From assembly GCA_015484595.1 (NCBI GenBank), contig WFMM01000158.1, positions 1-32,454 on the forward strand: a stretch of 32,454 nucleotides of DNA. Reading direction: 5' to 3'. The stretch comes from Nitrospirota bacterium. Lineage in GTDB: Bacteria > Nitrospirota > Thermodesulfovibrionia > Thermodesulfovibrionales > JdFR-85. The stretch's first letter is position 1; the number at the start of each line of letters is the position of its first letter. Under the pieces are notes generated by a model. It was not told where the DNA came from. It did not search any database and saw only the letters and a program-made list of their open reading frames with translations. Positions 4,914 to 30,653 of this stretch are shown one piece after another. The position numbers were made by a program, and so were the translations under genes.

Positions 4914-5044
4914 ATCTAAATTTTAACAGAATTTAATATTAATAGCAAGAACCTTGCCAGGAAGGGAGGGGGAGGGGGCAGTTTTTAGTTTTGAGTGAAT
5001 AGTGTTGAGTGTTTAGTAAAAAAAACAACTCAAGTAATATTATC

Positions 5045-5125
5045 AACGCAATGAACGCAATTAACGCAAGTAACGCTATTAACGCAATGAACCCAATGAA
5101 CGCAAATAACGCTCCCAACGCAATA
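5045..5125. repeat. 9-bp tandem array, consensus AACGCAATN, 9 in-phase units
   Basis: aacgcaatg/aacgcaatt/aacgcaagt/aacgctatt/aacgcaatg/aacccaatg/aacgcaaat/aacgctccc/aacgcaata read directly. Confidence 0.95.
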
Positions 5126-5263
5126 ACCAATAACTAATACACCAATATACCAATATACCAATTTCTAATCTCTAAATCCCAAATTCTAAACAAATACCAA
5201 ATCACAATTTCTAAAACAAAAGCGGGGTTGTTTAAAAATATAGTGGAGTGGTGGGTAAGAAGA

Positions 5264-6268: not shown

Positions 6269-6311
6269 CTGTAAAATTTTTCGACAGTTAAGTGTAAAGT
6301 TTCCCGACAGT
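6269..6311. promoter_or_regulatory. Paired activator-like boxes (PEP-CTERM locus 1)
   Basis: CTGTAAAATTTTTCGACAGT (6269-6288) and GTGTAAAGTTTCCCGACAGT (6292-6311), 23 bp apart; nearly identical pair at 9525-9567. Confidence 0.8.
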
Positions 6312-6400
6312 TATGATATCTTTAATATTCCACCTCGTAGGTGGTATTTTGTATTCCTCAATGGCTCATAAATAATTCTCCTGCTTTCATTTTAAAATGC

Positions 6401-9524: not shown

Positions 9525-9567
9525 CTGTAAAATTTTCCGACAGTTAAGTGTAAAGTTTCCCGACAGT
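9525..9567. promoter_or_regulatory. Paired activator-like boxes (PEP-CTERM locus 2)
   Basis: CTGTAAAATTTTCCGACAGT (9525-9544) and GTGTAAAGTTTCCCGACAGT (9548-9567). Confidence 0.8.
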
Positions 9568-9739
9568 TACGGTTAATTAGCTTAAATGTCCATCCAATAA
9601 AGAGGTTATGTTTTTAATAAAGATTGTGGAAATAGTCTCTTGGCATTTGAAAAAAAGCATTTTTAATTCTTTCATATAAAAAGAATGCTATAATAAAAAA
9701 GCTCCAGACTATAGGGGACAGATACTGAACAAAATTGCT

Positions 9740-17048: not shown

Positions 17049-17097
17049 CTCTTTCCTCCTTTATCGTGGTATTAGCCTGTTTAACAGGTTCACAGTT

Positions 17098-27332: not shown

Positions 27333-27722
27333 TTATTTACAGTTGCTGCTTCTAAGCCTCACATAGTTACAGAGGATATCTTTGAAATCCTCTTTGGTCA
27401 ATAGCCCTGGGACTCTGAAAATCTCGTGTCCCTTTGCATCTACAAATACAACCGTAGGGACCCCCTTTACATTATATAGCCTCGTTACCTCACGCTCTGT
27501 CTTTTTGTCATAAACAAGTTTTTTTCCTGTTACATTTATCTTTTTTATTTCCGTGTTTGAAAGGATGTTTCTTATGTCTTTGTCTTCAAGGACCTTTTCC
27601 ATTTTTTTGCACCATCTGCAGTTGTTAACATAGAAATAAAGCATCCTCACTTCTTTTGCAAAAATTGTTGTCTCTGTAATAACCAATATAACGGCTATCA
27701 GAAAAAATTTCCATATTTTCAT
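27333..27722 (-). CDS. soxW: SoxW-like periplasmic thioredoxin-family protein
   Basis: 129 aa; signal peptide, CRWCKKMEKVLED redox motif, GVPTVVFVDAKG; first gene of the sox operon. Confidence 0.82.
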   Translation of the reverse strand: MKIWKFFLIAVILVITETTIFAKEVRMLYFYVNNCRWCKKMEKVLEDKDIRNILSNTEIKKINVTGKKLVYDKKTEREVTRLYNVKGVPTVVFVDAKGHEIFRVPGLLTKEDFKDILCNYVRLRSSNCK

Positions 27723-27734
27723 GTTAATAGATTA

Positions 27735-27749
27735 GCAATGATTATGCCA
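27735..27749 (-). promoter_or_regulatory. Sigma-54 promoter of the sox operon
   Basis: Minus strand TGGCATAATCATTGC, GG-N10-GC exact, just upstream of the soxW ATG (27722). Confidence 0.82.
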
Positions 27750-27832
27750 GAACCAATAATTATTCTAACTTATTGAAATTAAATGAAAATTTACCATCAT
27801 GGCCAGAATTTTACAGAGCATGATAATTTTTC

Positions 27833-27880
27833 TGTCCCTTTTTGCACACCTGTTATTTAAGAGGTGTACATTTTTGAACT
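27833..27880. promoter_or_regulatory. Paired activator-like boxes upstream of soxW
   Basis: Plus strand TGTCCCTTTTTGCACA (27833-27848) and TGTACATTTTTGAACT (27865-27880), 32 bp apart. Confidence 0.72.
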
Positions 27881-27907
27881 TATATTTGATGGGAAATTCA
27901 GAGGGTA

Positions 27908-28075
27908 TTATTCAGAGGGGACTATCTCTTCAATTTGCATAACAGGTATGGTAAGCCAGCCTGACTCAGATTTGAGATAAACCTCCTGCTCGTTTATCTC
28001 TACGAGCCTGCCCGTGTAGGTAATACCATTTGCATGAACGGTTACGTTTTTACCTATCATCTCGTAAGGAAACAT
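27908..28075 (-). CDS. Small SH3/Sm-like protein, 55 aa (below ORF-track cutoff)
   Basis: Manual translation MFPYEMIGKNVTVHANGITYTGRLVEINEQEVYLKSESGWLTIPVMQIEEIVPSE. Confidence 0.75.
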   Translation of the reverse strand: MFPYEMIGKNVTVHANGITYTGRLVEINEQEVYLKSESGWLTIPVMQIEEIVPSE

Positions 28076-28108
28076 GGGTATATTATAACCAAAAGAGATT
28101 TGGTTTGT

Positions 28109-28216
28109 GTGTTAATCGCGTTGATTGCGTTATTTGCGTTTATTGCGTTAATCGAGTTCATTGCGTTTATTGCGTTCTTTGCGTTGATAGCGTTTATTGC
28201 GTTAGTAGAGTTTGTT
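28109..28216. repeat. 9-bp tandem array, consensus GCGTTNATT, ~12 in-phase units
   Basis: gcgttgatt/gcgttattt/gcgtttatt/gcgttaatc/gagttcatt/gcgtttatt/gcgttcttt/gcgttgata/gcgtttatt/gcgttagta/gagtttgtt; reverse complement of the 5045-5125 array. Confidence 0.95.
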
Positions 28217-28355
28217 GAGGTTGGGGGGTGTGGTTAGTGTTTAATTTTGAATTTTGAGTGTTGAGTTAATGGTTTTTTAATAGCCACTAAACATTATTTA
28301 CTCAAGAGTGAAAACTAAACCTACACGCTACTCCCTACACGCTATACGCTAATTA

Positions 28356-28716
28356 GGGAGTTTGAGGGGGGCCTCAAAGGGGGTTTACCCCCTTTTGAAA
28401 ACCCCCGAAATAAGGAACAAAATAAATTTATCAAATTATTGGGGGAGTTTGAGGGGACGAGGTCCCTCAAAGGGGCTTCGCCCCTTTGGAACCCCAAATA
28501 ATGAAAAATTTTTAACCATATCGGGGAGTTTGAGGGACGAAGTCCCTTCAAAGGGGCTATGCCCCTTTGAAACCCCAAATAAGGATTAATAATTTAAACA
28601 TATTTGGGGAGTTTGAGGGGCAAAGCCCCTCAAAGGGGTTTCACCCCTTTGAAACCCCAAATAAGGATTAATAATTTAACCATATTGGGGAGTTTGAGGG
28701 GGCGGAGCCCCCTCAA
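28356..28716. repeat. ~82-bp tandem repeat with two hairpins per unit (4 full copies + 1 partial)
   Basis: Units starting GGGAGTTTGAGG at ~28356, 28442, 28523, 28606, 28687; period 81-86 bp. Confidence 0.95.
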
Positions 28717-28723
28717 TGCCCTG

Positions 28724-30031
28724 CTAACGCTTCAGATTTACCAGTTCCTGAAGGAGGTTGTCAGTAGTTGTTACAATCCTTGAGTTTGCCTGAAATCCTC
28801 TCTGTGCTGAAATCATGGTGATAAACTCCTCTGCAAGGTCAACATTACTTAGCTCAAGGGAGTTACTAAGCACCCTGCCAAAACCAGAGTTAGCTGGTTC
28901 GCCTATTACCGGCTGTCCTGAGGCATAGGACTCAGCAAAGAGGTTTCTACCAAGTTTTACCAGTTCCTGAGGTGCAACGAACTTTGCAAGTGCAACCTGG
29001 GCAAGTGGTTTTGTCTGTCCATTGGTGAATATTCCTGTGATGAGACCATCCTCTGATATGTTCAATGTGGTTAGTGAGCCTGCTGTATAGCCATCCTGAT
29101 TTATAAACAGTGTTGTAGAGTCTGTACCAAACTGTGTGGTTGCATCCAGACCATCTCCACCATCGGTGGTAATACTCGTGCCAAAGTCAAAGTCGATCGC
29201 CTGTGCTGCTGTGGCTCCGTTAAAGTCTATACCAGTGCCACCAGTGTTGTAGTAAGTTATGGCACTTTCTGTATCAAGTGCACCATTTGTATCAAAGGTA
29301 ATGGTGCCTGATGCAACCAGTGCTGAGGTCCCGTCAGTTGATACTACAGTTGAAGAAACCTCAGAGGCATCTGCTACTGCATTCCAGTTCCAGGTGTTTG
29401 CAGCCGTTTTAGTGAAATAGACCGTTAAATTATGAGAGTTGCCAAGAGAGTCAAATACAGTAACGGTAATGTTAAAGTTGGATGTGCTGTTTCTGTTATT
29501 TATGTTGAATCCACCTGCAATTGTCTGGCTTTCAGAACTTAGGTTTGCTGCAATTAAAACCTTGGTAGTGGCATTTGGTGGGCTGTTTACGGCAGATATG
29601 TTGATGTCGTCAATAACGCCTGTGGCCTGACCAGTATTGGTAAACTGGTAACCCTGAATCCTGTATCCATCGGGGTTTACGATGTAGCCGTCCTTGTCCA
29701 CCTTGAACTGTCCTGCCCTTGTGTAGTAAGTAGCGTCTTTGTCTTTTACGATAAAAAAGCCATCCCCATCAATAGCCATGTCAAGGGCATTGGAGGTTGT
29801 TTCAAAGGAGCCCTGGTTAAATATTGGTGAGACATCTGTTACGATAACTCCTCGTCCTATCTGTGAGTTTCCACCAATACCCGTGATTGCCCTGCTCAAG
29901 ACATCTCCAAAGCTTACCCTGCTTCGTTTAAAACCAATGGTGTTCATGTTTGCCACATTGTCACCGATTACTGAAAGTGAAACACCATTTGCATTTAGAC
30001 CACTGATTGCTGAAAAAAGCGAGGATAACAT
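28724..30031 (-). CDS. flgE: Flagellar hook protein FlgE
   Basis: MLSSLFSAISGLNANGVSLSVIGDNVANMNTIGFKRSRVSFGDVLS... and C-terminal NVDLAEEFITMISAQRGFQANSRIVTTTDNLLQELVNLKR; AGGGAGGTG SD upstream of ATG 30031. Confidence 0.95.
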   Translation of the reverse strand: MLSSLFSAISGLNANGVSLSVIGDNVANMNTIGFKRSRVSFGDVLSRAITGIGGNSQIGRGVIVTDVSPIFNQGSFETTSNALDMAIDGDGFFIVKDKDATYYTRAGQFKVDKDGYIVNPDGYRIQGYQFTNTGQATGVIDDINISAVNSPPNATTKVLIAANLSSESQTIAGGFNINNRNSTSNFNITVTVFDSLGNSHNLTVYFTKTAANTWNWNAVADASEVSSTVVSTDGTSALVASGTITFDTNGALDTESAITYYNTGGTGIDFNGATAAQAIDFDFGTSITTDGGDGLDATTQFGTDSTTLFINQDGYTAGSLTTLNISEDGLITGIFTNGQTKPLAQVALAKFVAPQELVKLGRNLFAESYASGQPVIGEPANSGFGRVLSNSLELSNVDLAEEFITMISAQRGFQANSRIVTTTDNLLQELVNLKR

Positions 30032-30032
30032 T

Positions 30033-30653
30033 TTATGCACCTCCCTGAGTGATGGTCTTTATCTCTCCGAGGGAAACCCTCGATCCATTTTCAAGGATTA
30101 AATAGGTGGTATCTTCTGAAAGGTCAATACCTGTAATCAACGATTCAACCTCTGTGGGCACAGCAGTTGACTGTCCCTCTTTGTCAATACCAATAAGTTC
30201 AACCTTGTAAACACCCTGTGGGACCTGATTGCCTGATGAATCGGTTCCATCCCATTGGTAGGTTCTGTTTCCAGCCTGAGCTGGACCAAGGTCAATACTC
30301 TTAACCAGTTCGCCACTTTGATTGTAGATGTTTAGTGTGAGAGAGTTAAGGGGCTGGTCAACATTGTAGCTAAACTCAACAGGGGTCCCCTTGTAATTAA
30401 TCCTGTCGCCCTCAGAGCGAACATATCTTCCAATCAGGTTGGTAAATACAGACTGGTTTAGCCCCTTCTGAATTTCTTTGAGACTGTCAATGTTTTCGTT
30501 AATGTGGATAAGCTGCTCAAGTGAACTGAATTGAGCAAGCTGTGCCGTGAACTCCTTGCTTTCCAATGGATTAAGTGGGTCTTGGTACTGAAGCTGCTTT
30601 GTAAAAAGCCTGAGAAACTCATCCCTGCTTACCGTGTTGGTAATACTGTTCAT
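30033..30653 (-). CDS. flgD: Flagellar hook capping protein FlgD
   Basis: 206 aa; FLRLFTKQLQYQDPLNPLESKEFTAQLAQFSSLEQL. Confidence 0.95.
   Translation of the reverse strand: MNSITNTVSRDEFLRLFTKQLQYQDPLNPLESKEFTAQLAQFSSLEQLIHINENIDSLKEIQKGLNQSVFTNLIGRYVRSEGDRINYKGTPVEFSYNVDQPLNSLTLNIYNQSGELVKSIDLGPAQAGNRTYQWDGTDSSGNQVPQGVYKVELIGIDKEGQSTAVPTEVESLITGIDLSEDTTYLILENGSRVSLGEIKTITQGGA

Follow-up and report, generated by a model that had tools for sequence, protein, structure and literature searches.

A hairpin array adjoining flgE in a Nitrospirota bacterium: probably the inner part of an incomplete element from a new MITE family

A tandem array of folded repeats lies directly 3' of flgE in a window of 32,454 nucleotides (the whole stretch of DNA that was analysed, contig WFMM01000158.1 of a Nitrospirota bacterium of the order Thermodesulfovibrionales, JdFR-85 lineage). 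We consider it likely that this array formed the inner part of an element, now truncated, that belongs to a new family of MITEs (non-autonomous transposons), scattered over the genome and probably selfish. What is new is the family, which has an internal, expandable double-hairpin module; the kind of element is already known and has precedents in BrickBuilt and BOX.

Structure of the array

Direct reading and TRF (period 82, 3.4 copies, 28437-28716) agree on tandem double-hairpin units of about 82 bp that abut flgE, as the initial annotation had described them (Table 1). The arms of hairpin A are TTTGAGGGGC...GCCCCTCAAA and those of hairpin B CAAAGGGGC...GCCCCTTTG, with AT-rich spacers between; by direct reading GGGAG precedes each A and AACCCC follows each B. 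The last copy is indeed an A alone, terminating 6 bp short of the stop codon of flgE, which occupies 28724-28726 on the minus strand. The differences among stems reported earlier were also recovered on direct reading: A has GGGAC/GTCCC in copies 2-3, GGGGC/GCCCC in copy 4 and GGGGGC/GCCCCC in copy 5, and the closing pair of B is C-G in copies 2 and 3 and T-A in copy 4, with an extra G-C in copy 1. The A-B phase in which the units were first read is one of two framings, because the single copies of relatives run B - AT spacer - A. The array folds far more strongly than shuffled sequences (z=-8.0 as RNA, z=-9.2 as DNA). A known structured RNA family was ruled out, as the search of the window region against Rfam 15 gave nothing at the gathering score, and a search of nine loci gave 0 matches.

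Table 1. Features of the array and of its neighbourhood in the window.
Feature	Position	Strand	Details and basis
Whole array	28356..28717	+	5 A, 4 B, ~82-bp period; TRF, direct reading, folding
Unit 1	28361..28397	+	degenerate A 28361-28378 overlaps B1 28375-28397; direct reading
Unit 2	28448..28488	+	A2 28448-28471, B2 28468-28488; direct reading
Unit 3	28529..28569	+	A3 28529-28552, B3 28549-28569; direct reading
Unit 4	28612..28651	+	A4 28612-28634, B4 28631-28651; direct reading
Terminal A5, without B	28693..28717	+	direct reading
flgE, flagellar hook protein	28724..30031	-	Pfam FlgE_D2, Flg_bbr_C; homologues in relatives
flgD, upstream of flgE	30033..30653	-	Pfam FlgD
Next ORF downstream of flgE, 55 aa	27908..28075	-	no Pfam match; gene call, Pfam

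The parent element

The search for further copies that had been proposed returned 37 matches to the array units at about 30 distinct places of the bacterium's own assembly (2.11 Mb, 96% complete), in arrays of 1-5 units whose number varies by site. Most of these arrays are enclosed in a longer element whose ends are constant (GAGGCTGTTCAAGAAAA ... GAGCCTGTTGAACAGGCTC), and in most copies the left arm begins GAGGCTGTTCAAGAAAATCAAGGGTTTTACACTGGGGGC and the right arm finishes TTAATTAAAAATCAATAAGTTAGAGCCTGTTGAACAGGCTC. There is also a short form with the same arms and no array. Intact elements span about 105-160 bp when the hairpin module is missing and about 200-365 bp when it is present, and the measured lengths run from 106 to 364 bp. 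The terminal inverted repeats are GAGGCTGTTCAA / TTGAACAGGCTC, with one conserved mismatch. The right-end palindrome is found at 39 sites of the genome when up to 2 mismatches are allowed (a control pattern gave 0); a search of 60 relatives with up to 1 mismatch located it once in each of two genomes.

Exact target-site duplications of at least 5 bp flank 9 of the 21 copies that have both ends, against 0.57 expected from shuffled flanks (p=2e-4). Examples are AGTGAATA, CTTATAA and TATGGAT and, at array-bearing copies, GAAATAA and TAAAATTTTC; L031 and L025 are array-bearing copies with a duplication of at least 5 bp. The length of the duplication varies from 5 to 10 bp and an exact repeat of 5 bp or more is missing from 12 of the 21 copies, an untidy pattern if a single DDE transposase was at work. 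An empty site is provided by the gap between rpsC and rplP, where a genome of the same genus (G001) lacks the element and reads AGTAAATACAGAGCGAGG and our genome reads AGTGAATA, element, AGTGAATACAAAGCGAGG: the single AGTAAATA of the former stands against the duplicated AGTGAATA of the latter. This gap is also free of the element in the other genomes compared, and the ssb-rpsR gap, which holds an array-bearing copy here, is far shorter in G003. Being short, putatively non-coding and present at tens of dispersed sites, the parent element is a MITE; a search for phage or plasmid carriage gave no match. The suggestion of a structured mobile or amplifying repeat made in the initial annotation is thus borne out by the many dispersed copies and by the inverted repeats, target duplications and empty site of the element that carries them.

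Neither an element end nor a target duplication was found at the window copy, so its membership of the family rests on the shared 82-bp units. Its right edge CAATGCCCTG (28714..28723, +), which halts at the flgE stop codon, resembles the right-arm start CAAAGCCCTGGTGAAAG of intact copies and is a probable remnant of that arm; we infer a copy truncated at both ends.

Other repeats were seen in the window. A lone palindrome like the right end (2 mismatches) lies at 17073-17091, flanked by two genes of the minus strand and 24 nt ahead of a start codon; it may be all that is left of a copy of the element. Tandem arrays of a degenerate 9-bp repeat (GCGTTAATT / AACGCAATT-like) occupy 28111-28204 and 5027-5131, with similar runs near other element copies of the genome (L173, L175), and two short arrays of one 23-mer, TGTAAAATTTCCCGACAGTTAAG, are found some 3.2 kb apart at 6270-6313 and 9526-9569.

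Comparison with known systems

The closest precedents are BrickBuilt and BOX. BrickBuilt, a MITE with an internal minisatellite from Porphyromonas gingivalis (PMC4596501), likewise has a leader and a tail with inverted-repeat ends around variable tandem repeats, is intergenic and dispersed (19 copies), makes short target duplications of variable length and includes many copies without ends. However, its repeats are of 23 bp without spacers instead of 82-bp double-hairpin units with AT spacers, its ends are different, and it lies 49-591 nt from coding sequences, whereas the copies described here are near start codons in gene orientation. The BOX elements of Streptococcus pneumoniae (boxA-boxB(n)-boxC; PMC3049150) are also modular, structured, dispersed and located within operons, with a middle module that may be absent or multi-copy; their host is unrelated, and the likeness is one of description, not of aligned ends or module. 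Inverted pairs of short GC-rich palindromes, dispersed and sometimes in tandem, are typical of the REP, REPIN and BIME sequences associated with RAYT (PMC3116915, PMC3733652), but our genome has no Y1_Tnp and the carrier element makes target duplications. By direct reading, the palindrome pair found here also has GGGAG in place of a GTAG or CGTC tag.

Location relative to genes

In gene orientation, a Shine-Dalgarno-like motif follows most right ends within a few bases. As raw counts, uncorrected for how common the motif is across the genome, 20 of the 24 right ends that can be oriented by their arm have one immediately downstream but not on the side of the arm, and of the other 16 ends 15 have one on a single side. 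The right end is mostly 16-33 nt from the called start codon, and the copies mostly face the downstream gene. Further copies occupy the groES-groEL and nusG-rplK gaps (groEL and rplK identified by Pfam, groES and nusG read from the sequence), and placement close to a Shine-Dalgarno-like motif is seen beside divergent genes too. The spot just before the Shine-Dalgarno may be the only harmless place in tight operons. A stronger proposal would be that insertion or retention of the MITE is specific to a position a few nucleotides before the Shine-Dalgarno in gene orientation, even in the S10 and other housekeeping operons, and that its expandable hairpin module acts as a portable leader or intercistronic control in which the number of units tunes expression; we regard this as rather improbable.

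The array next to flgE is oriented opposite to flgDE, the minority orientation among the copies. The last hairpin had been proposed as a terminator of flgE, but no intrinsic terminator (a GC stem followed by a U-tract) was found on either strand in 27700-29000, so that it is not one of the intrinsic, canonical type. A Rho-dependent or mRNA-stabilising effect on flgE may still exist: the hairpins in the RNA could aid Rho or protect and stabilise the flgE 3' end, and may weaken read-through into the next gene. Direct reading revealed terminator-like hairpins immediately 3' of flgE in several relatives, and therefore the array could have replaced one. At flgE itself an empty-site comparison is unusable, because the relatives examined have another gene order after flgE and the genome of the same genus contains no close match to this gene.

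Origin of the array and alternative explanations

The most probable history begins with intact elements, from GAGGCTGTTCAAGAAAA to GAGCCTGTTGAACAGGCTC, that a transposase acting in trans would have inserted, creating short target duplications. Their B - AT spacer - A module would have multiplied in tandem to 1-5 units, most simply through slippage or unequal recombination between the 82-bp repeats, and the window copy would afterwards have lost both ends. Units are 81% identical within arrays and 78% between arrays (p=0.048), a difference so slight that it argues weakly for recent local duplication. The mobiliser was sought in two transposase families: the assembly of the bacterium (G000, 96% complete) has 0 matches to Y1_Tnp (PF01797), which speaks against a REPIN with its RAYT in this genome, and it has no DDE_Tnp_1. 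An autonomous copy could be missing, since these repeats lie at or close to the ends of several contigs.

A period of 82 bp and a unit number that differs between sites are also what slippage local to flgE, with no mobile DNA, would leave behind, but about 30 dispersed sites, the conservation of the element's ends, its target duplications and the empty site make this reading extremely improbable and refute it as a complete explanation. A more serious alternative, although we still think it unlikely, is that B - AT spacer - A is an older REPIN- or BIME-like double hairpin spread by a Y1 (RAYT-like) transposase, with the MITE ends as a secondary association. Single cores without these ends do occur in other families of the order, their flanks differ in other genera, and several core-bearing genomes have Y1_Tnp genes. 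On the other hand, besides the absence of Y1_Tnp from our genome, no core hairpins were seen next to Y1_Tnp genes, save for B-like hairpins at 2 of 5 Magnetobacteriaceae loci, and it is whole elements with their ends that carry the target duplications here. Maintenance of the hairpins for a function in RNA (3' stabiliser, attenuator or intercistronic control), their mobility being incidental, appears less probable again. Strong folding, stem covariation, right ends immediately before Shine-Dalgarno-like motifs in gene orientation and the hairpins after flgE in relatives would all suit such a role; yet the family is lineage-specific, with ends nearly absent from the 60 relatives, the downstream genes are unrelated housekeeping genes, there is no U-tract and the window copy is in the minority orientation.

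The initial annotation took the covariation of the stems as a possible sign of selection on structure. Compensatory changes are evident within the hairpins: the lengths of the G-run and C-run of A are concordant in 35 of 40 hairpins (17.2 expected) and the arm lengths of B in 39 of 44 (27.2 expected), both with p<1e-4 by permutation, values that overstate independence because the copies are paralogues. The closing pair of B is C-G in 30 hairpins, T-A in 10 and unpaired in 4. Length covariation is absent from the GGGG-(A,B)-CCCC enclosure and from the alternative CCCC-(AT spacer)-GGGG fold, outer stems that vary too little for a strong test. In palindromic DNA an arm may be templated by its partner during replication (quasipalindrome correction). 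Paired stems do not prove selection, then, as one arm can be copied from the other, and selection on structure is not established; self-correction of the palindromes could explain the covariation as well as selection does. We give even chances to a purely mechanical change of stem pairs, in which template switching copies arm onto arm. Inverted loop pairs (AAA/TTT, AGA/TCT, GAA/TTC) are present, and covariation is limited to the tight hairpins and absent from the distant GGGG/CCCC stems, as self-correction of close palindromes predicts. Against this, the outer stems are too invariant for a strong test, and families of the order also differ by two-sided changes, such as GGGGC/GCCCC to GGGAC/GTCCC in the A stem across taxa.

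Related hairpins in other genomes

Other genera and families of the order have single B - AT spacer - A cores, and the named records with an A hairpin include Thermodesulfovibrio, Thermodesulfovibrionales and Magnetobacteriaceae genomes. At L041, L044, L049, L053 and L061 (G003, G005, G010) the core lies within other elements, whose outer inverted repeats vary by copy while the ends stay complementary, e.g. GGTATGGTAGAGTCT or GGTATTAATTTT. At L055, L047, L067 and L101 (Nitrospirota and one record labelled Deltaproteobacteria) cores are found beside hairpins such as GTGAAGCTCCGACC...GGTCGGAGCTTCAC and TTTACGAAAACTGCC...GGCAGTTTTCGTAAA, which we take to recall IS605-type ends. In two genomes of one genus (L052 and L054, in G027 and G038) an A hairpin at the same site seems to extend into the 3' end of the gene upstream of it. 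The hairpin GGGAGTTTGAGGG...CCCTCAAAG, often with a second one, also occurs in L064-L131, records of the distant phyla of Desulfovibrio, Acetobacteraceae and Clostridia; a single Desulfovibrio genome from a termite gut has 20 or so matches.

Biological meaning

What was a curiosity beside flgE can now be described as a transposon family, in a lineage of Nitrospirota that has been little studied. The presence of the same core within different types of flank across genera suggests that a conserved folded core can outlive changed transposon ends. The family is unusual in sitting within conserved ribosomal-protein and chaperonin operons, and its many natural insertions lend themselves to the study of how an operon copes with a strong hairpin placed after a stop codon and before a ribosome-binding site.
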